Assembly (NCBI GenBank): GCA_001799675.1
Contig: MGTX01000034.1
Coordinates: forward strand, 17,463-70,861
From: Elusimicrobia bacterium GWA2_66_18
GTDB taxonomy: Bacteria; Elusimicrobiota; Elusimicrobia; UBA1565; UBA9628
DNA: 53,399 nt
Direction of reading: 5' to 3'
Part shown: in pieces, positions 31,966-53,399 of the stretch
Layout of the letters: the number at the start of each line of letters is the position of its first letter
Numbering within the stretch: the first letter of the stretch is position 1
Notes under the pieces: model-generated
Databases searched by the model: none
What the model was told of the DNA's origin: nothing
What the model saw: only the letters and a program-made list of their open reading frames with translations
Program-made: the position numbers and the translations under genes

Positions 31966-34857
31966 ACCCTTTTCTTCCCAATCTCCCAGCGTCTTGAGCC
32001 GGTCCAGGCCCGCGCGTTGGCGGTGTCCCAGGATCCAGACCGTCATCGGCTTGTCCTGGAGCCGTTTGGCGAAGGTCTCCGTCTCGGGCAGGGTATATTT
32101 GAGGGCGCGCTCGAAGCGCTTGGGTCTCGGGTCGCCGCCGCTGAGGCCCTGGTCTTCCCAGTTCATCACGGTCGTGGGAATGGCGCGAAAGGGCGTCGGG
32201 TTCGTCCGGTAGCCTTCCTCCACGGCGCGCGCGGTCTCGCTGAAGCGCGTCGGCGAGGCGGGAAAATCCCGGAAGAGCCGGAGCATGAGCTCGACGGCCT
32301 CGGGGGTCTTGTCCGCCTGGCAGCCGAGGCGTCCCCAGACCTGCGTCTCGTCGCCCTTGTCGGCGATCGTGGTGTGTCCGCCGTTGGCCGAGTAGGCCAG
32401 AGAGCGCGCTTCGCGGACCTCCTGGAAGATGACCGCGCTCATGCCGCCGCCCATGTACTGGGAATAGAACTGGTAGTCCACGACTCGCGACGGGTCGTAG
32501 ACTTCGTTCGAGGCGAAGAGTCCGACCTGGGCCTGGACCATGTCGCGGTGCGTGAACAGAACCTTCCCGCGGGAAGGCTTAAGGTAGTGCATCGGGGCGC
32601 GGGGCGCCGTGGGCTTGAATGAGCGCCCTGAATCCAGGAGCTTGGCCGTTTCGGAGATGGTTCGCGGTCCGACGTAGGCGACGCGCCGGGTCCAGAGGGG
32701 GTAGTCCCGGATGAGGGACTTGAGTTCGCTTTCGGAGAGGCGCTTGAGCTCCTCGTCGGTGAGGCGTCCGAGGACCGCGCTCTTGCGGCCGCGCATCGCG
32801 TACTCCCCCAGGGCGCGCTGCACCGCGCCCGGGTCCTTCTTCTCGTCCTCGCGCGCGCCGAGGTCCACCGACACCATCCGGGCCAGGGCGCCGCTCGAGA
32901 CGTTCGGCCAGTCGAAGCGCTCGGCCGCGAGTTGGAGGGAGGGCCAGAAGTTCCGGTCGATGCCCTCTAGATGGACGGAAGACTCCTGCTCGTCGCAGGA
33001 GTAGGAGATCGAGGTCCCCAGAGCGAAGAGTTTCTTCTTGAAATCCTCCGCCGAGTAGGGGCCGGCACCGGACAATCCGAGCAACTCCAGGGCCGCGCAG
33101 AGCTTGCGGTCGTGCCGCCAGCCGCGGTTGGCCTGGAAGGTGAGCTCGAAGAGGTCGTTGTACGGGTTTTTCGCTGCGTAGAGGCGTCCGCCGGCGATGG
33201 GCGCGACCTGGTAATCCCGGTTCGCCTCGAGCCAGCGGGGCTCGATGGGTTTGGCGGGGATGGCGAGAGCTTCCTTGACGAATGGAGACTGCCGCGATGG
33301 GTCGATCTCCATCTTGGTGAAGGCGGGCTTGGCGATGTTCGGTATCTCCGGCTTGCCGGCGCGGCGCGTCACGCTCACGTAATCGCCGTTCAAGTAGAGC
33401 TTGGCCGCTCGCAAGACGTCGTCTTTGGTCACTCGGCGCAGGCGCTCCAGGCGCTCCACCTCGCGCTCCCACGGCTCGAAGGAGACGAAGGAGGAGGCCA
33501 TGGTCGCGGCGCGCCCCTCGTTGCTCTCCAGCTTGCGCTTCTCGGCGATCTCGAAGGCGGTGATGACGGCGGTGATGTCCGAGTCCTCGAATTCCCCGTT
33601 CTTGAGGGCCGCGACGGTCTCCAGCAGGAGATTCTCGGCCTCCTCGGGCGTCTGATCCTTCTTGGGCAGGGCCCAGAGATACCAGGCGCCGGCGTCGTTC
33701 TGGTTCGACGTATAGGAGCCGGCGGCCTTGACCTTCTGCGCTTGATTGAGACGCAGGTTCAGCAGGCCCGCCGCCGAGTTGTCCATGAGCATGTCGAGGA
33801 CCGTCAGGGCATCGGCGTCGGGGTGGGAGTGCGCCACGGTGGGCCAGGCCAGCACGACCTTCTCCTCGGCCTCGTACCTGACCTCATAGCGCTCCGTGCC
33901 CTTCGGCCTGGGCAGGAGCCAGGCCGGCAGGGGGGGCAGCGGCTTGGGCGTCCAGGAGCCGAAGCGGCGGCCGATGAGCTCCAGCGCCTTCTCTCGGTCG
34001 AAGTCGCCCGCCAGCGCGATGGCCATGTTGTTCGGCGCGTACCAGCGGTCGTAGAAGGCGTACATCTTCGACAGGGAGGGGTTCTTGAGGTGCTCGACGC
34101 TGCCCAGGGTCGTCTGTTGGCCGTAAGGGTGGACCTTGTAGAGGCGGCGCTCGACTTCCTCGCCGAGGATGCGCTCCGCGTTGTCCATGGATCGGTTTTT
34201 CTCCTCGTAGACCGTCTCGATCTCGGTCTGGAAGAGGCGGAAGACGGGGCTCTTGAAGCGTTCCGACTCGAGGGCGCCCCAGGCTTCGAGGCGGTTGGAC
34301 GGGAGGTCGACGACGTAGACGGTCTGCTCGTCGGAGGTGAAGGCGTTGAGGCCGCGAGCGCCGATGGCGCGGTAGAACTTGTCGATCTCGTTGGGGATCG
34401 CGTAGGCCGACGCCTTCACGTTCTCGGCGTCGATCTCCTTGTAGACGGCGGCGCGCGCGGTCTCGTCTTTGGTGTTGAAGAGCGTGTCGTAGAGCGCGCG
34501 GATGCGCTCCAGATGGGGAGCCTCGGCGGCGGAGTCGAGGGCGCCGAGTTTCGTCGTGCCTTTAAAGAGCATGTGCTCAAGATAGTGGGCTATGCCCGTG
34601 CTGTCGGACGGGTCGTGCTTGGAGCCGGCGCGCACCGCGATCCAGGCCGTGACCCGCGGCAGGCCCTGGTTGGGGCTGAGGTAGACGGTCAGACCGTTGG
34701 GCAGGCGGTGGATGCTCGCGCCCATCGGGTCGTCGCGGCGAGGCGTTGCGAGGACCGCCGGCACGGCCGGCGACAGGCGGGAGGGTTTCGACTTTGCCGC
34801 GACGGGGGCGGCCAGGCACAGGGCGAGGAGCGGGGCGAGGGCGGTTAGGCGCGTCAT
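31942..34857 (-). CDS. M16 family zinc peptidase, two-half protein, exported
   Basis: A 971-residue protein with a signal peptide (LTALAPLLALCLAAPVAAKS). The active N-terminal half has H91-Y-L-E94-H95 (GIAHYLEHMLFKGT), followed by the long insert typical of one M16 subgroup (PNEIDKFYRAIGARGLNAFT) and the distal Glu region ETVYEEKNRSMDN. The C-terminal half (from about residue 500) is an M16-like domain without the zinc motif but with YMGGGMSAVIFQEVREARSL. Such proteins form a clam-shell that degrades peptides in the periplasm. The ATG overlaps the upstream gene stop. Confidence 0.92.
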   Translation of the reverse strand: MTRLTALAPLLALCLAAPVAAKSKPSRLSPAVPAVLATPRRDDPMGASIHRLPNGLTVYLSPNQGLPRVTAWIAVRAGSKHDPSDSTGIAHYLEHMLFKGTTKLGALDSAAEAPHLERIRALYDTLFNTKDETARAAVYKEIDAENVKASAYAIPNEIDKFYRAIGARGLNAFTSDEQTVYVVDLPSNRLEAWGALESERFKSPVFRLFQTEIETVYEEKNRSMDNAERILGEEVERRLYKVHPYGQQTTLGSVEHLKNPSLSKMYAFYDRWYAPNNMAIALAGDFDREKALELIGRRFGSWTPKPLPPLPAWLLPRPKGTERYEVRYEAEEKVVLAWPTVAHSHPDADALTVLDMLMDNSAAGLLNLRLNQAQKVKAAGSYTSNQNDAGAWYLWALPKKDQTPEEAENLLLETVAALKNGEFEDSDITAVITAFEIAEKRKLESNEGRAATMASSFVSFEPWEREVERLERLRRVTKDDVLRAAKLYLNGDYVSVTRRAGKPEIPNIAKPAFTKMEIDPSRQSPFVKEALAIPAKPIEPRWLEANRDYQVAPIAGGRLYAAKNPYNDLFELTFQANRGWRHDRKLCAALELLGLSGAGPYSAEDFKKKLFALGTSISYSCDEQESSVHLEGIDRNFWPSLQLAAERFDWPNVSSGALARMVSVDLGAREDEKKDPGAVQRALGEYAMRGRKSAVLGRLTDEELKRLSESELKSLIRDYPLWTRRVAYVGPRTISETAKLLDSGRSFKPTAPRAPMHYLKPSRGKVLFTHRDMVQAQVGLFASNEVYDPSRVVDYQFYSQYMGGGMSAVIFQEVREARSLAYSANGGHTTIADKGDETQVWGRLGCQADKTPEAVELMLRLFRDFPASPTRFSETARAVEEGYRTNPTPFRAIPTTVMNWEDQGLSGGDPRPKRFERALKYTLPETETFAKRLQDKPMTVWILGHRQRAGLDRLKTLGDWEEKGLGDIFPY

Positions 34858-44746: not shown

Positions 44747-45798
44747 AAGAAACACGCGCGCCGGAGCCGACCGCGGAGGAAATCTCCGCCGAGGCGGAGC
44801 GCCTGTACGGCAAGGGGCTGGCCGATCTCGGCTGGCGGGACCCGGAACTCGAGCGCGCGGCGAGGCTGACATGGAAGATCAATCGTCTGAAGACGGCGCG
44901 CAGCGCCGTCATCGCCGCGCACGTCTACCAGCGCGCGGAGATCATCCTCGGGGTGGCGGACTTCGTCGGCGATTCCTATAAGCTCGCCAAGATGTGCGCC
45001 GAGTCCGACGCCAAGCGCGTGGTCTTCTGCGGCGTGCGTTTCATGGCTGAGACCGCCAAGGTCCTCAATCCGGAGAAGGAGGTGCTGCTCCCCGCGCCCG
45101 AGGCCGGCTGTTCTCTCTCCGAGTCCATCACCGCGGCACAGGTCCGCGCGTTGAAATTAAAGCACCCGGGCGCGCCGGTCGTCACCTACATCAACACTTC
45201 CGTCGAGGTGAAAGCCGAGTCCGACGTGGTCGTGACCTCGGCCAACGCGCCTAAGATCCTGCGCCGGCTGTACGTCCGGCATCCGAAGATCGTGTTCATT
45301 CCCGACGCGATGATGGGAAAGAACCTTGCTTACGAGCTGGGAAAGAAGCTCGGAGAGGAGTTGGTGATCTGGGACGGCTCGTGCATTGTCCACGATCATT
45401 TCGATTCGACCTCCGTCGAGTTCTACCGCAAGATGTATCCCGGCGTGAAGATTCTGGCGCACTTCGAGTGCACTCCGGGCCTGGTCTCGGTGGCGGACTT
45501 CATAGGCGGCACCGGAGACATGATGCAGTGGGTCGCCGACCACAAGGCCCCGTCCTACATGCTGATCACCGAGTGCGGCCTGGGCGACCTCGCCCGCACG
45601 CGCTTCCCGGGAAAGGTCTTCGTGCCCATGTGCCGGCTCTGTCCCTACATGAAAGCCACCGACCTGTCGCGCGTTCTGCGCGCCCTGGAGCGCCCGACGG
45701 CCTCCCAGCGCATCGAGGTCCCGGCCGCGGTGCGCGAGCGCGCGCGGCGGCCCATCAAGAGGATGTTCGAATTGGCCGACGACACCTGCGCCTCGTGA
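44737..45798 (+). CDS. nadA: Quinolinate synthase A
   Basis: A 353-residue 4Fe-4S enzyme that makes quinolinate from iminoaspartate and DHAP for NAD. Cluster Cys appear in APEAGCSLSESI, TECGLGDLA and FVPMCRLCPYMKATDL; NTSVEVKAESDVVVTSANA, WDGSCIVHDHF and LAHFECTPGLVSVADFIGGT complete the pattern. nadB and nadC are not in the window. Being within the suf operon fits its oxygen-labile cluster. Confidence 0.95.
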   Translation: MAVKETRAPEPTAEEISAEAERLYGKGLADLGWRDPELERAARLTWKINRLKTARSAVIAAHVYQRAEIILGVADFVGDSYKLAKMCAESDAKRVVFCGVRFMAETAKVLNPEKEVLLPAPEAGCSLSESITAAQVRALKLKHPGAPVVTYINTSVEVKAESDVVVTSANAPKILRRLYVRHPKIVFIPDAMMGKNLAYELGKKLGEELVIWDGSCIVHDHFDSTSVEFYRKMYPGVKILAHFECTPGLVSVADFIGGTGDMMQWVADHKAPSYMLITECGLGDLARTRFPGKVFVPMCRLCPYMKATDLSRVLRALERPTASQRIEVPAAVRERARRPIKRMFELADDTCAS

Positions 45799-47369
45799 GT
45801 TCGTGGGGCCCTTGGACGGACGAGGCGTTCGCCCGCGCCAAGGCGCAAGACAAGCCCCTCCTGGCCGCGGCCGGCGCGCGCCCTCCGAAGTTGGCGAGAG
45901 AGGTCTCGCAGTCCGTCGCTCGACGCTTCGTCGCCGTCCTGGCCGACCCGGACTCGCGTCCCGACGCGGCCGCGCGCGTCGGCGCCGGCCACCTCGTGGT
46001 GATGGACCCGGACGGGGTTCGGCGAGGGGTGCTCCCGATTTCCTCCGCCGACCTGGGCGCGGCGCTCGAGCGCATGGCCGATGAGGCCTCCTTCGCCTCC
46101 TCCGGACGTCCCGAGGACCCCGCGCCGGCCTGGAGCGCAGCGGTCCCGCCCAAATCGCTCGGTTCGGCCCCGGACGAGACCTGCCTGGAGGAGGCCTTCG
46201 CCGAAGCGCGGTCCGCGGCCGCGGCCGGCGGCGTCGCCGTCGAGGTCCTGGAGGCTCTCGCCTACGCGGTTTCAGAGAGGAACGACGCGCGGGCCCTGCC
46301 GTTGTTGGAACAGGGAGTCGATGCCCTCCTGAGCGGCCCGCTCTGGGACGCCGCGAACGGGGCGTTCCGCGCGCTCGGGGAGTCGCCTCTGCGGGCCAAC
46401 GCGCGCCGAGTCCGCCTGCTCTGGGACGTCCACGCCTTGACCGGCGCGGACCGTTGGCGCCGCTCCGTCGAGGCCGCGACCCGCTACCTCCTGCACGCGC
46501 TCTACGACCCGCGCCTCGGCTCCTTTCTCAGCGCGCCCGCCCCGAAGTCTCCCGTCCACACGGCCGACGGCAACGCCCAGGCCGTCCTAGCGTTGCTGCG
46601 CGCCTCGGCCTTCGACGTTCCCGGCGCACCGCAAGCCGCCGGCAAGGCCCTCTCCTTTCTCCAGGGCCTCTACGACCCGATCCTCGGCTTGCGGCACTCG
46701 GCGGGCGGCGGGGGGGAAGAGGTCTGCGGACTGCTAGGCGACGCCGCCTGGAGCGCGCTCGCCTTCACCGAGGCCTTCCAGGCGACGGGCGACAAAGCGC
46801 ACCGAGAGTTCGCCGACGTCCTCCTGCGCTTCCTCTTCCAGGAGCTATGGGAACGCGACAACGGCGGATTCCTCGACCGCGTGCCGCGCGCAAGCGACCC
46901 GGCGATCCTGCGCGAAACCCGCCTGGACCCGGGGCTCAACGCCGTGGCGCTGGAGGTCTGCTGGCGCCTCCACCATCTCAAGGGCAACGCGAACTACCGC
47001 CGCTGGCTCGATTGGGCCTTGAGGGGGCTCTGGTCTCTCTGCGGCGCGGACGCGGCCGGGCGCGCGGGCTTAGCCAGGGTGGCGGACATGGCCGCTCGCG
47101 GGCGTCTGGACCTGGAGTTGGTCGGCCGTCCCGGCGAGACGCTCTCCGCAGCGCTGCTCGCGGCGGCGCGGCGCGCCTACGCGCCGCGGGCCATCGTCTC
47201 CTTCGTGGATCCCGACGACCAGGGCTACATCATGGCGCACAAGCTGACCGCGGACTCCTACCCGCGCCTCTTCGGCTGCGGGACGGACTTGCGGCGCCTG
47301 TCCGACTCGGCCGAGCCTTCCGGCGTGGCCGCGGTCCTTTGCGCGATGCGCGCGGCGGAGGGGGTCTGA
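45795..47369 (+). CDS. YyaL/SSP411-like protein with a degenerate thioredoxin domain
   Basis: A 524-residue protein. The N-terminal 110 residues (SSWGPWTDEAFARAKAQDKP) recall the DUF255 thioredoxin domain of YyaL but are shorter and lack the CxxC. The rest is an (alpha/alpha) barrel like N-acylglucosamine epimerase-type domains: DGNAQAVLALLRAS, LLGDAAWSALAFTEAFQATG, FLFQELWERDNGGFLDR. Function of the family is not settled. GTG start overlaps nadA stop (GTGA). Confidence 0.7.
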   Translation: MSSWGPWTDEAFARAKAQDKPLLAAAGARPPKLAREVSQSVARRFVAVLADPDSRPDAAARVGAGHLVVMDPDGVRRGVLPISSADLGAALERMADEASFASSGRPEDPAPAWSAAVPPKSLGSAPDETCLEEAFAEARSAAAAGGVAVEVLEALAYAVSERNDARALPLLEQGVDALLSGPLWDAANGAFRALGESPLRANARRVRLLWDVHALTGADRWRRSVEAATRYLLHALYDPRLGSFLSAPAPKSPVHTADGNAQAVLALLRASAFDVPGAPQAAGKALSFLQGLYDPILGLRHSAGGGGEEVCGLLGDAAWSALAFTEAFQATGDKAHREFADVLLRFLFQELWERDNGGFLDRVPRASDPAILRETRLDPGLNAVALEVCWRLHHLKGNANYRRWLDWALRGLWSLCGADAAGRAGLARVADMAARGRLDLELVGRPGETLSAALLAAARRAYAPRAIVSFVDPDDQGYIMAHKLTADSYPRLFGCGTDLRRLSDSAEPSGVAAVLCAMRAAEGV

Positions 47370-47371
47370 AC

Positions 47372-48553
47372 GTGGCCCGGCCCAAGCGCTTCGCGGACGC
47401 CATCTCGACGGAGAAGGACTGGCGCAAGGCCGTCGCCGAGGCCGCGCGCGCCGCGCGCGCCAAGCTCGGCCCCTCGCCCTGCGACCTGGCCCTGGTCTTC
47501 GTCTCCCAGGCCTGGGACGACTTCGACCCACGCAAGCTCTCGCCCTTGCTGGCCAAGCACCTGGCCCCTCTGCACACCCTCGGCTGCAACGCGAGCGGCG
47601 TTCTGGCGGGGCGGCGCGAGGTGGAGGGCAAGCCTGCCGTCGCCATCCTCGCCATGAGCCTGCCGGATGTGCGCGTACACGGATTTATTCTCGCGCCGAA
47701 GGAACTCGAGCGCATGGAGGACGGTCGCGCCTTGGTGGCCTGCCTCGACCTTTACCCGACCGACCGCCCCAAGTTCCTGGCCTTCTGCGACCCGGCGTCC
47801 TGCGATCCCGAGCGCCTGGCGGCCCTCTGCAACCAGGCCTACCCGGGCGCGCCGCTCATCGGGGGGCTCTCCAGCGGTCCGCTGCTGCGGCGTTCGGCCT
47901 GGATGATCCTGGACACGGAGGTCGTCGAATCAGGCACGGCGGCGGTGGCGCTCACAGGTCCAATCGAGTTCCAGACCGTGGTCGCGCAGGGCTGCCGGCC
48001 CATCGGCGAGGCGCTGGTCATCACGCGAGCCGAAGACCGCGTCCTTTACGAGTTGGGCGGTCGCCCGCCGCTGGAGGTCCTGCGCGAGACTCTCTCGAGC
48101 TGCACGCCCGAGGACCAACGCCTGGCGCGCAAAGCCCTCTTCGCGGGCCTGCTCATAGACGAGAAGCGCGCCGGCGCGCGGCGCGGCGATTTCCTGATCC
48201 GCAATCTCCTTGGTTTCGACCAGGACATGGGTTCATTGAAGGTGGGGGCATCGCTGCGCCGAGGCCAGACCATGCAGTTTCAGTTGCGCGACGCGCAGAC
48301 TTCCGATTCGGACCTTAAATCGATGCTCGCGGCTCTGCCCGACGCGGGCTCGGCGCCTCGAGGCGCGCTTCTCGTCAACTGCTGCGGCCGCGGCCAGGGC
48401 CTCTACGGCGATGGAGATCATGATTCGGCTCTCGTCCAATCGATGAGGGGTCCGATGCCGATGGCCGGGTTCTTCGCCAGCGGAGAATACGGCCCCGTGG
48501 ACGGGCGAAACTTCGTCCACGGCTCCACCAGCAGCCTCGTCGTCATCCGCTAA
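47372..48553 (+). CDS. FIST-domain sensory protein
   Basis: A 393-residue protein with FIST N and C domains: CDLALVFVSQAWDDFDP, TLGCNASGVLAGRREVEGK, PLIGGLSSGP, GPIEFQTVVAQGCRPIG, and the C-terminal LLVNCCGRGQGLYGDGDHD plus AGFFASGEYGP. FIST domains bind small ligands such as amino acids and usually belong to signalling proteins, but no kinase or cyclase domain is attached. GTG start with GGAGGGGG before it. Last gene of the suf-headed run. Confidence 0.88.
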   Translation: MARPKRFADAISTEKDWRKAVAEAARAARAKLGPSPCDLALVFVSQAWDDFDPRKLSPLLAKHLAPLHTLGCNASGVLAGRREVEGKPAVAILAMSLPDVRVHGFILAPKELERMEDGRALVACLDLYPTDRPKFLAFCDPASCDPERLAALCNQAYPGAPLIGGLSSGPLLRRSAWMILDTEVVESGTAAVALTGPIEFQTVVAQGCRPIGEALVITRAEDRVLYELGGRPPLEVLRETLSSCTPEDQRLARKALFAGLLIDEKRAGARRGDFLIRNLLGFDQDMGSLKVGASLRRGQTMQFQLRDAQTSDSDLKSMLAALPDAGSAPRGALLVNCCGRGQGLYGDGDHDSALVQSMRGPMPMAGFFASGEYGPVDGRNFVHGSTSSLVVIR

Positions 48554-48560
48554 GCGGACG

Positions 48561-49265
48561 TCAGCGGCGGGCGGTCAGGCGCGGGGCCAGGCGTTCGGCG
48601 GTGTCGGGGGAGGGGTCCACGCGGCGCGCGTCGAGGTCCACCTCGAACTCCAGGGAGGGGTCTGCCTGCGTCGGCCGGAAGCTCACGCGGTAGGTCTTCT
48701 CCCCGGTGCGCTCCGCCGTCCAGGCAGGACGGGCGCCAGGCAACTCCGAGGGCTGGCGCAGGCGCTCTATGATGGGAAGGTCGTCGCCCGGCACGCGCCA
48801 CTCGTGGAGCAGGGCGATGGCCTCATTGCCGCGGTCGTCGTCTGCGGAGATCTGCAGCGCCGGGTCGGCGCACAGGACGGGCGCGGGGATCTCATTGGCG
48901 GGCGGAGCCGCGGGACGACGCGCGGGCAACTGCGAGGCGACGGCGAAGACGGCGAGTGCCGCGTAGGGCGCCCATCGCGCCAGGCGGATCCGGCCGCGCG
49001 CGGCGCCCGCCGGGAAGGAGGTCGCCGCAGCTCGCGCCGAGTCCAAGGCGCCCCCTTCCACGACGGGCGTTGAGACGGCGACGGCTTCCGGGGCGGGCGA
49101 AGCCGTCATCCGGCGCAGGGCGTCCAACTCCTCGCGCAGGCGCCGCAGTTTATCGCGCTGGGTGTAGAATCTCGCGCGGGCACCGTTGACGGTCTCGCGC
49201 AGCCCCAGCGCCTTGTCGCGCAGGTTCGTGAGGTCAGAGGCGTCGGCCGGGCGTTCGTGGGACAT
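48561..49265 (-). CDS. Coiled-coil membrane-anchored protein, unknown
   Basis: A 234-residue protein starting at the ATG 49265. An N-terminal coiled coil (about residues 14-55, rich in Arg, Leu and Glu) is followed by an Ala-rich linker, one membrane helix (about 95-112, WAPYAALAVFAVASQL), and a soluble C-terminal domain (FRPTQADPSLEFEVDLDARR). No family recognised. A TATACT (49283-49278) lies 12 bases upstream of the ATG. Its 3' end is seven bases from the convergent FIST gene. Confidence 0.6.
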   Translation of the reverse strand: MSHERPADASDLTNLRDKALGLRETVNGARARFYTQRDKLRRLREELDALRRMTASPAPEAVAVSTPVVEGGALDSARAAATSFPAGAARGRIRLARWAPYAALAVFAVASQLPARRPAAPPANEIPAPVLCADPALQISADDDRGNEAIALLHEWRVPGDDLPIIERLRQPSELPGARPAWTAERTGEKTYRVSFRPTQADPSLEFEVDLDARRVDPSPDTAERLAPRLTARR

Positions 49266-49327
49266 GGGGACGCAGCCAGTATAGCCGCGCCCTATTAAGG
49301 AAAAATGTCGCGCCCGTGAACGGATTG

Positions 49328-50209
49328 TTACGCGCCCTTGAGGGCCGCGATGCGGACTTCGAGCGGCGGGTGGGTGGAGAGCAGGGCCATGAAGCCTCCC
49401 GTCTTCCCGGCGATCTTGAGGCTGGCGTAGGCGGTCTGGCTCTCGAGGGGCTCGTAGCGCCTCTGGAGGGCCTCCAGGGCGGCGATCATGCCGCCTCTGC
49501 CGGCCAGCCTGGCGCCGCCCGCGTCCGCGCGAAACTCGCGCCGGCGCGAGAACCAGGCGACGACCACCATGCCCAGCAGGCTGAGGGCGATCTCCAGCGC
49601 GAGGGTGACCGCGAACTGGACCATACGGCGGTTGTCGCGCTCCATGTTCTGAGCCACGGCGAAGGCGATGACGCGGGCTAGGAACATGACGAAGGCGTTG
49701 ACCACGCCCTGGATGAGGGTCATCGTGACCATGTCGCCGTTGGCGACGTGGGTGAGCTCGTGGGCCAGCACGCCCTCCAGTTCGGGGCGGCTCATGGATC
49801 CCAGCAGGCCCGTTGAAACCGCGACCAGGGCGCGGGACTTGGTGGGGCCGGTGGCGAAGGCGTTGAGCTCGGGGCTCTCGTAGATGCCGACCTCGGGCAT
49901 GACGGGCAGGCCGGCGGTCTGGGCCAGGCGGTGGACGGTCTGGAGCAGTTCCATGGACTCGCCTCGGGCCTCCTGCGGGTCGATGACTTGCACCCCCATG
50001 GACCACTTGGCGACGATGCGCGAAAGGCCCAGGGAAATGAAGGCGCCGCCCATGCCCCATATGAGGCAGAAGGTCATCAGCGCGCCGTAGTCGAGGCCCC
50101 GGGCGGAGAGGTAGGGGCGCACGCCCAGGAACTGGAGGGTGATGGAAAGGGTCGCCACCACCAGCAGGTTGACGGCCATGAAGAGGAAGACGCGCTTAAA
50201 CCAGGTCAT
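49328..50209 (-). CDS. htpX: Membrane zinc metalloprotease HtpX
   Basis: A 293-residue M48 protease. Two N-terminal membrane helices (VFLFMAVNLLVVATLSITL and the segment near 42-62), zinc motif VLAHELTHVANGD, two further helices, and the third ligand region RREFRADAGGARLAG. It degrades damaged membrane proteins, complementary to FtsH. ATG with GAGGTG eight bases upstream and a recognisable promoter. It is the last ordinary chromosomal gene before the cassette region. Confidence 0.95.
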   Translation of the reverse strand: MTWFKRVFLFMAVNLLVVATLSITLQFLGVRPYLSARGLDYGALMTFCLIWGMGGAFISLGLSRIVAKWSMGVQVIDPQEARGESMELLQTVHRLAQTAGLPVMPEVGIYESPELNAFATGPTKSRALVAVSTGLLGSMSRPELEGVLAHELTHVANGDMVTMTLIQGVVNAFVMFLARVIAFAVAQNMERDNRRMVQFAVTLALEIALSLLGMVVVAWFSRRREFRADAGGARLAGRGGMIAALEALQRRYEPLESQTAYASLKIAGKTGGFMALLSTHPPLEVRIAALKGA

Positions 50210-50233
50210 TGTTGTTCACCTCGATGCTTAAGT

Positions 50234-50263
50234 AGTTTAGTCTTGAATTGCCCTCCGCGTCAA
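50234..50263 (-). promoter_or_regulatory. htpX promoter
   Basis: TTGACG (50263-50258), 18-base spacer, TAAACT (50239-50234) on the minus strand, then GAGGTG and the ATG. The remaining 106 bases up to the attC-like site (50264-50369) hold no recognisable gene. Confidence 0.6.
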
Positions 50264-50369
50264 GGCGATCTTCTTCAGAGACAGCCCTGAGAGAGAGCCC
50301 TGCCGAAATCACTAAGGAGTTGAATCCATCCGCGTTGCGCTTCCGTAGCAAACCCGGCCTGAATGGTCC

Positions 50370-50449
50370 GCCCAACGCTACGTTCTGCCGCGCGCGCTAC
50401 AGGAACTCCCGTAAAGAAAGCGCGCGTCGGCACAAGCGCTGAGTTCGGC
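50370..50449 (-). other. attC-like integron recombination site A
   Basis: Read on the minus strand: R'' GCCGAAC (50449-50443), L'' TTGTGCCG, an unpaired A, stem CGCGCGC, a 22-base loop, stem GCGCGCG, L' CGGCAGAA, and R' GTTGGGC (50376-50370, a perfect GTTRRRY). L''/L' pair at 7 of 8 positions and the inner stem at 7 of 7. The extra A in the L'' arm is a hallmark that sets attC polarity. It starts one base after the stop of the antitoxin gene at 50451, as cassette attC sites do. It marks the left end of the cassette array next to htpX. Confidence 0.75.
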
Positions 50450-50450
50450 C

Positions 50451-50726
50451 TCATTTGGCCGCAAGACGTCCCGATGCATATCGGTGGAGGACGCTTCCCA
50501 TAAGGGTTTGATAGGGGATGCCTTCTGCAACAGCGATGGCTTGTAATTCCTCCAGATCCTTGGAGGAAATGCGGATGTTAACTCTCCGGTCCTTTCGCAG
50601 GGTGTTCTTCGCGTACTGACGATGCCGGGAAATCTCCTGTTTTGGATTTTTCACGGACTTCCACTCACCCCGTTCAAAGGAATCAAGAGTGCTTTGCTCT
50701 TCTTTATCCAACTTAATCTTCTTCAT
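50451..50726 (-). CDS. CopG-like (COG5304-type) antitoxin
   Basis: A 91-residue protein. A disordered charged N-terminus leads to a ribbon-helix-helix of the CopG type: RVNIRISSKDLEELQAIAVA then EGIPYQTLMGSVLHRYASG. It would bind operator DNA and neutralise the toxin encoded just upstream, whose stop it overlaps by 14 bases. First module of the cassette array from the left. Confidence 0.85.
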   Translation of the reverse strand: MKKIKLDKEEQSTLDSFERGEWKSVKNPKQEISRHRQYAKNTLRKDRRVNIRISSKDLEELQAIAVAEGIPYQTLMGSVLHRYASGRLAAK

Positions 50727-51018
50727 CTAAGCCTCCCAGAAAATCTCGAGTCGCCTTTCGGCTGGGGATAATGGTTTTGAGAAATCTGCCCTCATTTGAA
50801 TCGACGAATGGGACAAGATAAGCGTAGTTGCCTGCTTGGACCACAAGAACGCGTTGATTGGGATACTTGAAGGGGTTCGGATGATCGTATACGCCGAGAA
50901 CATCGCCTCGTTCAATGTGCATCACAATCTGCTCGAAACTTACGCCACGTTCAGCCCTGAGGCGCTCGTTTTTCTCCGAATCCCACTTATAGTAGTCCAC
51001 ACTAAGATTGTATTGCAT
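50713..51018 (-). CDS. BrnT-like toxin
   Basis: A 101-residue protein. YYKWDSEKNERLRAERGVSF, HIERGDVLGVYDHPNPFKY, QRVLVVQAGNYAYLVPFVDS and FLKTIIPSRKATRDFL match the family of small toxins paired with COG5304 antitoxins; it shares the BrnT-like RNase fold by pattern. I chose the ATG at 51018, which gives the usual length. Toxin gene first, antitoxin second, overlapping. Confidence 0.8.
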   Translation of the reverse strand: MQYNLSVDYYKWDSEKNERLRAERGVSFEQIVMHIERGDVLGVYDHPNPFKYPNQRVLVVQAGNYAYLVPFVDSNEGRFLKTIIPSRKATRDFLGGLDEED

Positions 51019-51039
51019 TGTGTGCTTTTTGGCAACAGT

Positions 51040-51088
51040 ATTGAACCATTGGATAGGCCGAACGCCACGCTCTATCCATTGGTTAGGG
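51040..51088 (-). other. Degenerate attC-like inverted repeat B
   Basis: On the minus strand CCCTAAC (51088-51082) and GTTCAAT (51046-51040) flank an inverted repeat CAATGGATAG / CTATCCAATG (9 of 10), again with an unpaired A after the 5' arm. Both R boxes miss the consensus by one base and do not pair with each other, and the site is only 49 bases, so it is an eroded or short attC. The TAA stop of the upstream antitoxin lies inside its R''. Confidence 0.45.
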
Positions 51089-51319
51089 CAATGGGTGACG
51101 AGTTGCGTAGGCATCAATCAGCTTGCGGATCATCTTCTGATAGGGCGTGTGATACTTCTGCGCTGCCTTCTTAAAGAAGGCAACGCTCGACTTGCTGAGC
51201 GTCATGGTTACCTTCACGCTCTCCTCCTTGAAGGCAAGTTCTTCAGGAGGGGGCAGGAAATCCCTGACCACGCTCAGCTCGCCCAGGGGTTCATCCGTGT
51301 ATTTGATTTTCTTTTTCAT
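51083..51319 (-). CDS. BrnA-type antitoxin
   Basis: A 78-residue protein starting at the ATG 51319. The C-terminal ribbon-helix-helix is VKVTMTLSKSSVAFFKKAAQ then KYHTPYQKMIRKLIDAYA. It is preceded by ELAFKEESV. It overlaps the BrnT gene by 29 bases, the normal order being toxin then antitoxin. The antitoxin probably represses the module through the palindrome at 51589-51607. Confidence 0.85.
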   Translation of the reverse strand: MKKKIKYTDEPLGELSVVRDFLPPPEELAFKEESVKVTMTLSKSSVAFFKKAAQKYHTPYQKMIRKLIDAYATRHPLP

Positions 51320-51575
51320 AAAGAGCCTTCCCTTTTCTCCAGTAGCCCGCTCCAAAGAGGCGGATCCTATTCTCTCTGTACGTGAACCGAACGGTGAGGA
51401 TTCCGTCACCGACGCGGCCGAAGCAATAAAACCGCTTTTCCTTCTGACTGTGCTCAAGATCTTCCGCAATGACTCTTTTGGCATCCGCGAATGCGTGTTG
51501 GGCCGTTTCAAACGATACGCCGTGCTTATGCTGGTTCTCCCGGTCTTTGCTCTCGTCCCATTCAAAATGAATCAT
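51291..51575 (-). CDS. BrnT family toxin
   Basis: A 94-residue RelE-fold RNase toxin. Signature: HFEWDESKDRENQHKHGVSF, then RFYCFGRVGDGILTVRFTYR and RIRLFGAGYWRKGKALYE. The length and pattern are those of Brucella BrnT. The ATG is close to a TATACT -10 overlapping a palindromic operator. Low GC compared with the chromosome to the left. Confidence 0.92.
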   Translation of the reverse strand: MIHFEWDESKDRENQHKHGVSFETAQHAFADAKRVIAEDLEHSQKEKRFYCFGRVGDGILTVRFTYRENRIRLFGAGYWRKGKALYEKENQIHG

Positions 51576-51586
51576 GCGCTTCTTTA

Positions 51587-51607
51587 AGTATACATCGAGT
51601 ATGTATA
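51587..51607 (-). promoter_or_regulatory. Promoter/operator of the BrnT-BrnA module
   Basis: Perfect inverted repeat TATACAT-5-ATGTATA (51589-51607) overlapping a TATACT -10 (51592-51587) on the minus strand, 11 bases before the brnT ATG. The position fits autorepression by the antitoxin. Confidence 0.65.
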
Positions 51608-51669
51608 AATAGCCATACTTGTTTATGGTCTAAAACAAGCCGTTTCGCCGTTATGATTTGACCGAATTG

Positions 51670-51744
51670 CCCTAACGCCGGGCTGAACGGCGGCGGCTAT
51701 TGGAATTCCTCACTGGCCGCCGTCCGTTCAAGCCGATGTTAGGC
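51670..51744 (-). other. attC-like integron recombination site C (best preserved)
   Basis: On the minus strand: R'' GCCTAAC (51744-51738, perfect RYYYAAC), spacer, L'' TGAACGG, an unpaired A, stem CGGCGGC, an 18-base loop, stem GCCGCCG, L' CCGTTCA, spacer, R' GTTAGGG (51676-51670, one base off GTTRRRY). L''/L' and the inner stem pair perfectly. R'' starts four bases after the relE stop, exactly where the attC of a cassette should be. Same polarity and same extrahelical A as site A. Confidence 0.85.
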
Positions 51745-51748
51745 GGCT

Positions 51749-52006
51749 TCACAAGTTCCTGTAAGTCCGTTCGTTTCTCCGCAGAACTCTGAGAATCGTG
51801 ACCACCCTTTCCAAATCCTGGACGGCGTACAGAACTCGCCAATTTCCCACCCGAATCCGATGGAGCTTATCTTGCAGCTTCTTGGCCCCGTGCGGACGGG
51901 GGCCGGTCCCAAGCCCGATGATATGCTGCTCAAGTCGTGACAGATCAGGCCCCATGATGCGATCCAGATCGCGCCGTGCCGTTCGCGCAATCTCGACCTT
52001 ATACAC
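51749..52006 (-). CDS. RelE/ParE family toxin
   Basis: An 85-residue protein of the RelE fold: VEIARTARRDLDRIM, LGTGPRPHGAKKLQDKLHRI, RVGNWRVLYAVQDLERVV and ILRVLRRNERTY. These are the typical strands and basic residues of RelE-like mRNA interferases. GTG start overlapping the antitoxin gene by eight bases. Followed immediately by attC-like site C. Confidence 0.92.
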   Translation of the reverse strand: MYKVEIARTARRDLDRIMGPDLSRLEQHIIGLGTGPRPHGAKKLQDKLHRIRVGNWRVLYAVQDLERVVTILRVLRRNERTYRNL

Positions 52007-52232
52007 TTTTCTTTCGCTTCGAAAAATACTCCCGCGCCGGGATGGCCGTTTCTGCCACCTTCGAATGTGTCGCCCATGCCTTTCGCGCGACCTTCAAGTC
52101 AGCGAGATCCTCTTCATAGAGGCGTTCCGCGGCTTCCCTGAGAAGATTGGCCATAGAACACGCCCTTTCAATCGCCAGGTGTCTTAGACTGGCGTGCAAC
52201 TCCTTTGGCAGGAAAATGGTTGTTCGTATCAT
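51999..52232 (-). CDS. Ribbon-helix-helix antitoxin of the RelE module
   Basis: A 77-residue protein starting at the ATG 52232. N-terminal RHH: IRTTIFLPKELHASLRHLAI then ERACSMANLLREAAERLY. The acidic and then basic C-terminal tail would wrap the toxin. Here the antitoxin gene comes first, unlike the other three modules. Strong promoter with an inverted repeat directly upstream. Confidence 0.88.
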   Translation of the reverse strand: MIRTTIFLPKELHASLRHLAIERACSMANLLREAAERLYEEDLADLKVARKAWATHSKVAETAIPAREYFSKRKKSV

Positions 52233-52233
52233 T

Positions 52234-52281
52234 TTACACCCCCTAGAGTGTAAGTATACCATAGGAACATACATATGTCTA
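52234..52281 (-). promoter_or_regulatory. Promoter/operator of the RHH-RelE module
   Basis: TAGACA (52281-52276), 17-base spacer, TATACT (52258-52253) on the minus strand. Downstream an inverted repeat TTACAC-8-GTGTAA (52253-52234) covers the start point, a likely antitoxin-binding operator. Confidence 0.75.
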
Positions 52282-52323
52282 GCCCTGCCAGCTGGTCAAT
52301 CAAATGGTTAGGAGTCAAGCAGA

Positions 52324-52530
52324 TTAAAAATCCTTCAGCTTGCTCTTTGTGCCTTTGCCCTGGAGTACCAACTCGAGATTCTTGGCGCTATCAGCGAAGG
52401 AGTCTGTGATCGCTTTGTATCCATCCTGCGTTGGCCACGGCCAGCCCACGCATGGGCTGAGTGCTGGCACACCTTCGATCAGTTCAAATTGAAGCCGGGC
52501 CTTCCCGTCCTTCGACCGGCAGAGTGCCAC
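52324..52530 (-). CDS. Small cassette-encoded ORF, unknown
   Basis: A 68-residue frame beginning with GTG one base after the antitoxin stop, so it could be translated by coupling. Content: ARLQFELIEGVPALSPCVGW, QDGYKAITDSFADSAKNLEL, ending KGTKSKLKDF. No hydrophobic segment and no family recognised. It could also be the remnant of a longer protein whose start was replaced when the module formed. Confidence 0.45.
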   Translation of the reverse strand: MALCRSKDGKARLQFELIEGVPALSPCVGWPWPTQDGYKAITDSFADSAKNLELVLQGKGTKSKLKDF

Positions 52531-52758
52531 TCAGGTGTGTCTGCTGCCCAGGCGCTCGGATATCCAGACCTTGATGATGGATTGCCGGGTGACGCCCAGG
52601 CGGTCGGCTTCTTTGTCCAGGGAATGAATCATCCATGCCGGGAAGTCCACGTTCACACGCTTGGGCTCTTCGTTGGTCCTTTTCGCACGGGCCAAGTCGA
52701 GATACTTGGAGATGTTGCCACCGGAATCGAACAGTTTGTCTAGATCTTTAGCTTTCAT
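52531..52758 (-). CDS. CopG/BrnA-type antitoxin
   Basis: A 75-residue protein from the ATG 52758. The RHH is RVNVDFPAWMIHSLDKEADR then LGVTRQSIIKVWISERL; the preceding DLDKLFDSGGNISKYLDL is the usual linker of this antitoxin group. It overlaps the BrnT gene by 11 bases. Confidence 0.88.
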   Translation of the reverse strand: MKAKDLDKLFDSGGNISKYLDLARAKRTNEEPKRVNVDFPAWMIHSLDKEADRLGVTRQSIIKVWISERLGSRHT

Positions 52759-53008
52759 ATAGTTCACGCTCCTCGGTCCGTGCTCGCCGCACTGAAATGA
52801 TGCGGGTGCGGCCCTGGCGATAAGTGACGAATGCCGACCAATGCTTACCGTCAATTCGCCCCGTGAATTGTACTCGGGGCTCATCGTCACTCTTTAGCGG
52901 AATCTCCAGAAGTTCGGGATCGTCCCATAATGCCTGCGCCTCAACAAAATCAATGCCGTGCTTCTTCCTGTTGGACTCGCTTTTCCTCTCGTCAAATTCG
53001 AATTCCAT
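52748..53008 (-). CDS. BrnT family toxin
   Basis: An 86-residue BrnT: FEFDERKSESNRKKHGIDF, ALWDDPELLEIPLKSDDEPR, GRIDGKHWSAFVTYRQGRTR and IISVRRARTEERELY. The conserved His, Arg and the RRAR end are present. Third BrnT-like module in this region; the three toxins differ clearly from each other, so they are not recent duplicates. Promoter with palindromes upstream. Confidence 0.93.
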   Translation of the reverse strand: MEFEFDERKSESNRKKHGIDFVEAQALWDDPELLEIPLKSDDEPRVQFTGRIDGKHWSAFVTYRQGRTRIISVRRARTEERELYES

Positions 53009-53010
53009 TT

Positions 53011-53035
53011 GGTATAGATAGTATACCGTATCTAT
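53011..53035 (-). promoter_or_regulatory. Promoter/operator of the rightmost BrnT module
   Basis: Overlapping palindromes GGTATA-5-TATACC (53011-53027) and ATAGATA-8-TATCTAT (53014-53035) enclose a TATACT -10 (53025-53020, minus strand) 11 bases before the ATG. Probable autoregulatory operator. Confidence 0.6.
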
Positions 53036-53047
53036 CCTATTCCGTCA

Positions 53048-53079
53048 ATCCCAGGCGCCTATGATCCCAGGCGCCTATG
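53048..53079 (+). repeat. Tandem direct repeat, 2 x 16 bases
   Basis: Two perfect, directly adjacent copies of ATCCCAGGCGCCTATG (53048-53063 and 53064-53079). Each contains the palindrome GGCGCC. It could be a target duplication or slippage next to a mobile-element end. Confidence 0.85.
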
Positions 53080-53081
53080 AG

Positions 53082-53131
53082 TGTCAAGGCCGTTTAGAAA
53101 TGTCCTGTAGTTAAGCCGCATAGAAATGTCC
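53082..53131 (+). repeat. Imperfect direct repeats, possible insertion-sequence end
   Basis: TGTCAAG (53082-53088) is followed by GCCGTTTAGAAATGTCC (53089-53105) and again by GCCGCATAGAAATGTCC (53115-53131), 15 of 17 identical. Repeated AGAAATGTCC units behind a TGTCA terminus are the sort of array seen at the ends of IS21-like and related elements. The body would lie to the right of the window. No transposase frame is visible yet. Confidence 0.4.
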
Positions 53132-53399
53132 GGTTTCCGTTGTCGTTGTAGCCGTGTTTTAATCCGTTTTCCTTTCGTTTCGTTTCGTTGTTGTGGCCGT
53201 TGCCGTTAGGATTGATTTAGTGAAATTGCGTTGCTGTTGCGGAGGCCGTAGTCGTTTCGTTCGCCGCTCGAATTTCAAGTTGGAAAGATTTTGCCCCCCA
53301 ACGGAATGTCCGTGTCCTTCCGGCAAGCGCGCGTATCTCCGACGAGGCCGGGGAGCCCACTCTCGGCAAGTCTGCGCGCGCGGATGACGTGAGGACGGC
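53132..53399. other. Right-edge stretch without a recognisable gene
   Basis: The first 130 bases are strikingly biased on the plus strand towards GTT, CGTT and TTTCG runs (TTCGTTTCGTTTCGTTGTTG is typical) and poor in A. After that the composition returns to GC-rich. I see no convincing coding frame, RNA or attC site here. It may be the subterminal region of a mobile element. Confidence 0.5.

Follow-up and report, generated by a model that had tools for sequence, protein, structure and literature searches.

Four toxin-antitoxin operons interspersed with attC sites, the recombination sites of integron gene cassettes, lie to the right of the htpX gene in the genome of Elusimicrobia bacterium GWA2_66_18 (assembly GCA_001799675.1, a metagenome-assembled genome (MAG) that is 94.7% complete). 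This genome is designated G000 and the contig of the operons (MGTX01000034.1) C34; other G and L codes denote genomes and loci of relatives. The window, which is the whole stretch of 53,399 nucleotides analysed (G000:C34:17463-70861), ends on the right at the contig terminus (53399), and uncoded coordinates below are its positions. The htpX gene (49328-50209, minus strand; NF003965, 362 bits), of which the closest named HtpX matches come from two Elusimicrobia MAGs (70 and 66%), is directly left of the array, and the GC content falls there from about 0.70 to 0.52-0.54. The 1-kb bins across 50001-53000 have 0.52-0.54 GC compared with 0.58-0.73 in the 50 other bins of the window, so that the array is poorer in GC than the chromosome to its left, as an earlier note made from the sequence alone had stated.

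Profile searches with Pfam and NCBIfam locate the four operons head to tail on the minus strand, bearing out the four compact modules of the same note, and each operon is predicted from these family matches to encode one type II toxin-antitoxin pair. Three of the four toxins score above the Pfam cut-off (the BrnT-like toxin of cassette 1 is below) and two of the four antitoxins above a curated cut-off, NF047399 clearly and RHH_1 barely. Cassette 1 encodes a CopG/BrnA-like (COG5304-like) antitoxin of 91 aa (50451-50726; PF12441, E 2.2e-5, below cut-off) and a BrnT-like toxin of 101 aa (50713-51018, from an inner ATG assigned by eye; PF04365, E 3.8e-7, 30.8 bits against a cut-off of 34.5, on the open reading frame (ORF) 50713-51117). 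Cassette 2 encodes a BrnA-like antitoxin of 78 aa (51083-51319, start by eye; PF14384, E 4.4e-4, below cut-off, on ORF 51083-51565), the stop codon of which is inside the R'' box of its attC, and a BrnT toxin of 94 aa (51291-51575; PF04365, 77.2 bits). In cassette 3, a ParE/RelE-family toxin of 85 aa (51749-52006; PF05016, 35.7 bits) is paired with a ribbon-helix-helix (RHH) antitoxin of 91 aa (51999-52274; PF01402, 20.8 bits against a cut-off of 20.5), and in cassette 4, a BrnA/CopG antitoxin of 75 aa (52531-52758, from an inner ATG assigned by eye; NF047399, 114.7 bits against a cut-off of 60, on ORF 52531-52890) is paired with a BrnT toxin of 86 aa (52748-53008; PF04365, 83.2 bits).

The attC sites of integrons have inverted R boxes with the consensus RYYYAAC/GTTRRRY around an imperfect hairpin. 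Two sites on the minus strand of the window have this structure: the attC of cassette 1 (50370-50449; R' 50370-50376, R'' 50443-50449), one base past the antitoxin stop codon, with 28 nested pairs in 80 nt, and the attC of cassette 3 (51670-51744; R' 51670-51676, R'' 51738-51744), with 28 nested pairs in 75 nt; each agrees with the consensus at 13 of 14 box positions. A covariance model (R1) made from 38 attC of the arrays of seven relatives, with zero training sites from G000, recovers both (55.3 bits, E 1.8e-13 and 67.3 bits, E 5.4e-17, respectively). The earlier note had called these two sites well formed and had taken the lack of a model hit at either of them as the outcome that would speak against an integron; both are strong R1 matches. 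The site at 51670-51744 scores 67.3 bits on the minus strand versus 21.3 on the plus strand, and the polarity of the sites is therefore that of the genes, as proposed. It is also found (28.2 bits, E 6.9e-5) by a second model (R2), trained on 19 Gemmatirosa array sites plus two class 1 sites, of which the latter score 24.7 and 20.7 bits; R2 does not find the site at 50370-50449 and reaches other attC of G000 only at E 0.09-0.1. Similar copies of the site at 50370-50449 (82-96%, some partial) are present elsewhere in G000 and in relatives. Both named attC are real.

The alignment of the 38 training sites supports a structure of 24 pairs, with pairing in 93.4% of cells and two-sided changes at 16 of the pairs. 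Each of these two values was attained by 0 of 500 shuffles and the number of further pair types by 2 of 500, and shifting the pairing partner along the alignment abolishes the pairing signal. Two unpaired bases in the 5' arm (columns 19 and 26) match the direction of the genes; the unpaired bases that give known attC their polarity are located in L''. In a control search, R1 matched none of 11 comparison genomes at E 1 (~35 Mb, one of them an Elusimicrobium; at most 150 candidates scored per genome), so that among 12 genomes only G000 was matched, and a weak match in the chromosome of the window (33666-33746, E 0.029) is at noise level. R1 matches the Gemmatirosa array at 20 sites (best E 4.2e-12) and, at E 0.1, has no match to the class 1 attC of L228 and L229, which makes it a lineage-biased model. 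A hand scanner for attC was noisy (3 matches in the window versus 3.1 in shuffles with loose settings, 41 versus 1.8 over L166-L185 with stricter settings) and therefore served only for the collection of candidates, never as proof.

Integron integrase cuts attC in the R' box, so that the outer R' bases belong to the next cassette and should complement its own R''. This footprint was sought in neighbouring attC pairs on the same strand and at most 2 kb apart from the R1 search of the loci; duplicates on the opposite strand were excluded, as were L043, whose DNA is that of L234, and matches with E values above about 6e-5. Of the 94 pairs, 67 have an R'' that exactly complements the R' before it, against a mean of 9.2 and a maximum of 19 in 1000 permutations; within a single site, R'' and R' agree in just 9 of 94. 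In the Gemmatirosa array, 18 of 19 pairs have the footprint. The misses include the other two pairs of G000 (on contigs C28 and C13) and the raw pair of the window, between the members of which sits a decayed site of 32 bp (51057-51088, minus strand; R' 51057-51063, R'' 51082-51088; 13.9 bits and E 0.22 with R1 on its own). With this site included, both testable cassettes of the window match at seven of seven positions: GTTCGGC at 50443-50449 pairs with its complement at 51057-51063, and GTTAGGG at 51082-51088 with its complement at 51670-51676. The decayed site is the attC of cassette 2 without its hairpin. The same cassette in G247 keeps the hairpin, in a site of 80 bp and 82.7 bits (R1), and the sequences beside the loss agree by eye; R1 also matches the corresponding site of the G252 and G124 copies, and finds none at that end of the G255 copy. 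The third site, "degenerate" in the earlier note, is thus a real attC, and by comparison with the intact G247 copy its decay is specifically a deletion of the hairpin with both R boxes kept.

The cassettes of the window are found singly in other places. A search with the whole array matches 41 of the order's 56 genomes, G000 included, and the rows listed are single cassettes, single attC or parts of the repeat at the right end. The BrnT/BrnA cassette (cassette 2) has copies in four genomes of the same genus (G252, 94% identity; G247, 91%; G255, 88%; G124, 83%), and the matches run from 51068-51069 to 51677-51700, with both ends inside the flanking attC regions. The left neighbours of these copies differ by eye, and neither cassette 1 nor cassette 3 was found in the loci examined around them. 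The G124 copy is flanked on one side by a carbonic-anhydrase cassette (PF00484) and on the other by a further attC, and has an integron integrase (IntI) about 1.8 kb away. By these comparisons, the BrnT/BrnA cassette travels as one unit from context to context. The htpX gene was found at 11 loci in 10 other genomes of the genus, and none of the 11 has an attC at E 0.1 within the returned flank (at most 1.5 kb); a base-exact empty site could not be shown. Because the htpX loci of relatives lack attC and the neighbours of the BrnT/BrnA copies differ, the array is not a vertically conserved neighbourhood, and the conserved gene order that the earlier note had set against its own reading was not found.

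Other features of the array and of its copies are less regular. Between modules 3 and 4 is an ORF (52324-52530, minus strand) that resembles the 3' part of a broken gene and has no Pfam match at E 1 and no NCBIfam match at 0.1. It is joined to cassette 4 at 52511, which is where the matches to cassette 4 in G247:C188 and G251 start, inside the R''-like box of that cassette (52510-52516); an integrase-made junction at 52511 is possible, with one base that does not fit. Next to the ORF is a possible decayed attC, unproven and seen by eye only (52277-52313, minus strand; R''-like box 52307-52313), which R1 does not match at E 10. The toxin region of cassette 4 has a copy of 90-91% identity in G247:C188, adjoining an intact attC, and a BrnT/CopG cassette copy in G251 (L168, 6735-7779) is split by about 1 kb of inserted DNA. 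The G124 locus with the BrnT/BrnA copy also contains, between IntI and the first attC, a 471-aa ORF that appears caspase-like by eye (L040, 2177-3592).

With a true IntI taken to be one over the cut-off of the TIGR02249 family, an integrase occurs in 17 of 247 genomes across the phylum and in 6 of the 19 within the genus. G000 has none over the cut-off, in the window or in the rest of an assembly that is incomplete and in which the contig ends at the array; this agrees with the earlier note, which had no integrase in view, and the 17 weak match pieces of TIGR02249 in G000 are of the same kind as those in all 14 control genomes. In ten of ten loci of the order with both IntI and an attC match (L040, L041, L234, L037, L230, L233, L042, L049, L035, L044), the cassettes share the strand of intI and lie past its 3' end, as read from their positions and as in Treponema; five loci outside the order (L033, L045, L046, L047, L048) have the classical arrangement, and seven other IntI loci (L031, L032, L034, L036, L038, L039, L050) have no attC match at E 0.01. 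G251, the only single-contig genome of the genus, has 44 R1 matches and one IntI. That IntI gene (L230, G251:C1:2960333-2961256), beside the largest array, is reported to contain one in-frame TAG.

Clusters of attC sites lacking integron-integrases (CALIN) have been described in bacteria and archaea (PMC8618304, PMC9668308). The two intact sites of the window are 1.2 kb apart, so that at least two attC occur within 4 kb, and, of the intI and attI beside the array that would make a complete integron, no intI over the cut-off is in the genome and no attI was recognised by eye at the right edge. The array is very probably a CALIN, i.e., integron cassettes without integrase, in an elusimicrobiote whose close relatives partly have complete integrons; the cassette organisation read by the earlier note, which had named a CALIN as its form if no integrase were present, is supported by the attC sites, the footprint and the absence of detectable IntI. 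Each cassette would originally have been a circle of one toxin-antitoxin operon and one attC, inserted by an integron integrase that recombined the folded bottom strand of attC, as structure, polarity and footprint suggest; the integrase may since have been lost from the genome or may have acted from elsewhere.

Several observations weigh against the CALIN interpretation. R2 misses the site at 50370-50449, and 27 of the 94 neighbouring pairs are without an exact footprint (about seven are one-base register shifts by eye). The R1 genome searches scored limited candidates (at most 83 per genome in the order, at most 150 per genome in the controls), and the order-wide R1 matches (36 of 56 genomes, or 29 of 49, G000 counted, after subtraction of the seven that supplied training sites) are partly a matter of construction because of those seven. 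With a completeness of 94.7% for the MAG and 391 bp between the last toxin gene and the contig end, an integrase could also sit in a gap.

Of the alternatives, the one that survives best is that the cassettes did not come from one array but were scattered, one or a few at a time, by an integrase at secondary chromosomal sites; the balance of probability for it is even. R1 finds eight attC spread over five contigs of G000, i.e., on four contigs besides that of the window, and the absence of attC from all 11 other htpX loci also fits with scattering, as does the presence of the C28 modules at other places in relatives: YefM/YoeB in G187, G250, G247, G217 and G249; BrnT-CopG in G124 and G148; YefM/ParE in G252, G247 and G250. 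Between gatB and gatA, G000 has a cassette encoding a Dph6-like ATPase (L232, G000:C17) and G247 has two YefM toxin-antitoxin modules (L313, G247:C30). Among the 18 other members of the genus, 13 have the flanking matches 18-187 bp apart; the distance is about 3-3.5 kb in G187 and about 3 kb in G179, and G252 and G253 could not be judged. The gatB/gatA interval is thus a possible insertion hot spot, and the whole pattern favours, without proof, insertion of the dispersed cassettes at secondary sites. Set against this are the insertion junctions, which are not base-exact (146 bp of unexplained DNA lie between the 50370 attC and the conserved htpX flank), the gatB/gatA modules of G247, which have one weak R1 match to attC only, and the 3.5-kb gap of G187, which has none; and the cluster on C34 has four modules and is therefore a true array.

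An alternative with a smaller chance of being right is an intact integron of which the array forms only the far end, with the integrase and the first cassettes in an assembly gap to the right. The polarity of the cassettes places attI on that side, the contig stops at the end of the window so that a continuation of the array is not visible, arrays often break assemblies, and the IntI of several relatives are near contig ends. The right edge itself consists of the end of an insertion sequence (IS) followed by a multicopy repeat (53072-53399, IS start by eye; repeat 53311-53399), which interrupts the upstream side of the array and in which no attI was recognised by eye. Contigs C16 and C17 of G000 also carry the 89-bp repeat at their ends, with identity over 86-89 bp, such that three contigs terminate at it, each with a different preceding sequence; on C16 it comes after a match to group II intron D1-D4 (RF02003, 98.6 bits). 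This edge, the lack of an IntI over the cut-off in so complete an assembly and the attC on four other contigs make the alternative unlikely. That the hairpins belong to some other palindromic repeat (a terminator, a REP-like element or an IS200/IS605-type site) in a toxin-antitoxin island is hardly credible: they are GC-rich, directly follow stop codons and gave, in an Rfam scan of 45000-53399, three matches, all below the gathering scores of their families, in a database where no attC family was seen, but the R/L box layout, the two unpaired bases on one arm, the footprint that matches neighbours, the proximity of such sites to IntI in relatives and the match with an IntI-adjacent array of Gemmatirosa are those of attC.

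The content of the cassettes appears to differ between small attC clusters and arrays. In G000, toxin-antitoxin genes, several of them below the Pfam cut-off, precede six of the eight attC: those of cassettes 1 and 3; YefM/YoeB and a BrnT-CopG fusion on C28; HigB with a helix-turn-helix (HTH) protein on C13; and a CopG-type antitoxin without recognised toxin on C8. The other two attC follow a 73-aa protein of no recognised family and the Dph6-like ATPase (by eye). In the IntI-side array of G251 (33 attC, seven without a called ORF), none of 39 ORFs, integrase and transposases included, matches a toxin-antitoxin family at Pfam E 0.001, compared with one of 16 ORFs in its second cluster (eight attC) and with toxin-antitoxin pairs at two of its three isolated attC, one of which (Gp49-like with HTH) is presumed to be such a pair from its family. 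Toxin-antitoxin genes occur at both attC of L169 (by eye) and at two of the 33 attC (six without an ORF) of ten loci classed as arrays, namely in L040 and L234 (by eye), both adjacent to IntI; at IntI-adjacent loci only (L040, L234, L041, L037 and the G251 array), the proportion is 2 of 44. Summed, small clusters have 16 of 46 and arrays 3 of 74 (Fisher p 1.2e-5), or 10 of 38 versus 3 of 74 without G000 (p 0.001), in an exploratory test for which loci were chosen and grouped by the analyst, some contigs are cut, homologous cassettes are counted repeatedly, and small toxin-antitoxin proteins are easier to recognise than many unknown cassette proteins.

A tentative interpretation, which has more chance of being wrong than right, is that in Elusimicrobiota the IntI-side arrays are nearly free of toxin-antitoxin cassettes and the scattered small attC clusters enriched in them, with genomes that lack an integrase keeping mostly addictive cassettes that are finally frozen by hairpin deletion. 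Toxin-antitoxin cassettes would persist if loss of one poisons the cell through the longer-lived toxin, and cassettes without such a hold would be lost over time; loss of the hairpin would then freeze a cassette in place, and the one attC without a hairpin suggests that cassettes are becoming fixed. The link to addiction is only a correlation, the design of the test limits it as described, and two further results count against such retention. At 20 small-cluster loci of other genomes, six of 33 attC (seven without an ORF) follow toxin-antitoxin genes (YefM/YoeB, CopG, YoeB, YefM/ParE, VapB/PIN and PemK; four of the six are among the genus's 17 attC), a proportion that weakens the statement that small clusters in general are mostly toxin-antitoxin; and the IntI-adjacent arrays of G124 and G217 each hold one toxin-antitoxin cassette.

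Were this interpretation correct, the survival of cassettes beyond their integron would be decided by post-segregational killing, in a natural parallel to the 'cassette loss killing' of evolved Vibrio strains. These genomes form a natural series in which the survival of cassette clusters past the integrase can be tested by counting: at one end is the array of 33 attC beside an integrase gene, at the other a genome in which no integrase is detectable, the few cassettes are mostly toxin-antitoxin and one attC has no hairpin. The array also adds a phylum to the range of integrons, and a lineage-specific attC model can find such cassettes in unlabelled metagenomes. Elusimicrobiota are not among the 14 phyla with integrons listed by a 2021 review (PMC8618304) and are not named in the main text of PMC9668308 or PMC8352920; no Elusimicrobiota integrons were found in print by title and start of abstract, in a search that did not cover subscription papers and preprints. 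The earlier note knew of no description of an array of toxin-antitoxin cassettes alone in such a setting; CALIN are a known kind, the phylum appears to be new, and the toxin-antitoxin pattern is a hypothesis worth testing.

Compared with the CALIN described in PMC8618304 and PMC9668308, the array is alike in having two or more attC separated by less than 4 kb, the same polarity as its genes and no intI found, and differs in that the window has only toxin-antitoxin modules and one gene fragment, one attC is without a hairpin, and the phylum is absent from the list in PMC8618304. The sedentary chromosomal integron of Vibrio cholerae, like the array, has toxin-antitoxin operons as cassettes, but its 19 toxin-antitoxin cassettes are in a large array with intIA (PMC11023631), whereas here they are in small clusters without intI, and the large array of the relative G251 has none by Pfam. 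Integrase inactivation and 'cassette loss killing' are reported in evolved V. cholerae strains; with an inverted integron, inactivation of the integrase is one route to loss of the growth defect, and none of three sequenced clones had excised any of the three unduplicated toxin-antitoxin cassettes (PMC11023631). The chromosomal integrons of Treponema resemble those of the relatives of G000 in that intI points toward the cassettes, and a remnant in T. phagedenis likewise keeps attC without intI (PMC3607928); they belong to another phylum, and the word 'toxin' is absent from the main text of that paper. Plasmid 1 of Gemmatirosa kalamazoonensis (NZ_CP007129.1, L227) has 20 attC recognised by the Elusimicrobiota model, with intI on the same strand and the footprint in 18 of 19 pairs, but its attC are longer (mostly 94-99 nt), its phylum is Gemmatimonadota and its array adjoins the integrase. 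The nearest precedents for the array are the Treponema-like and Gemmatimonadota integrons rather than those of Vibrio, which the earlier note had cited.

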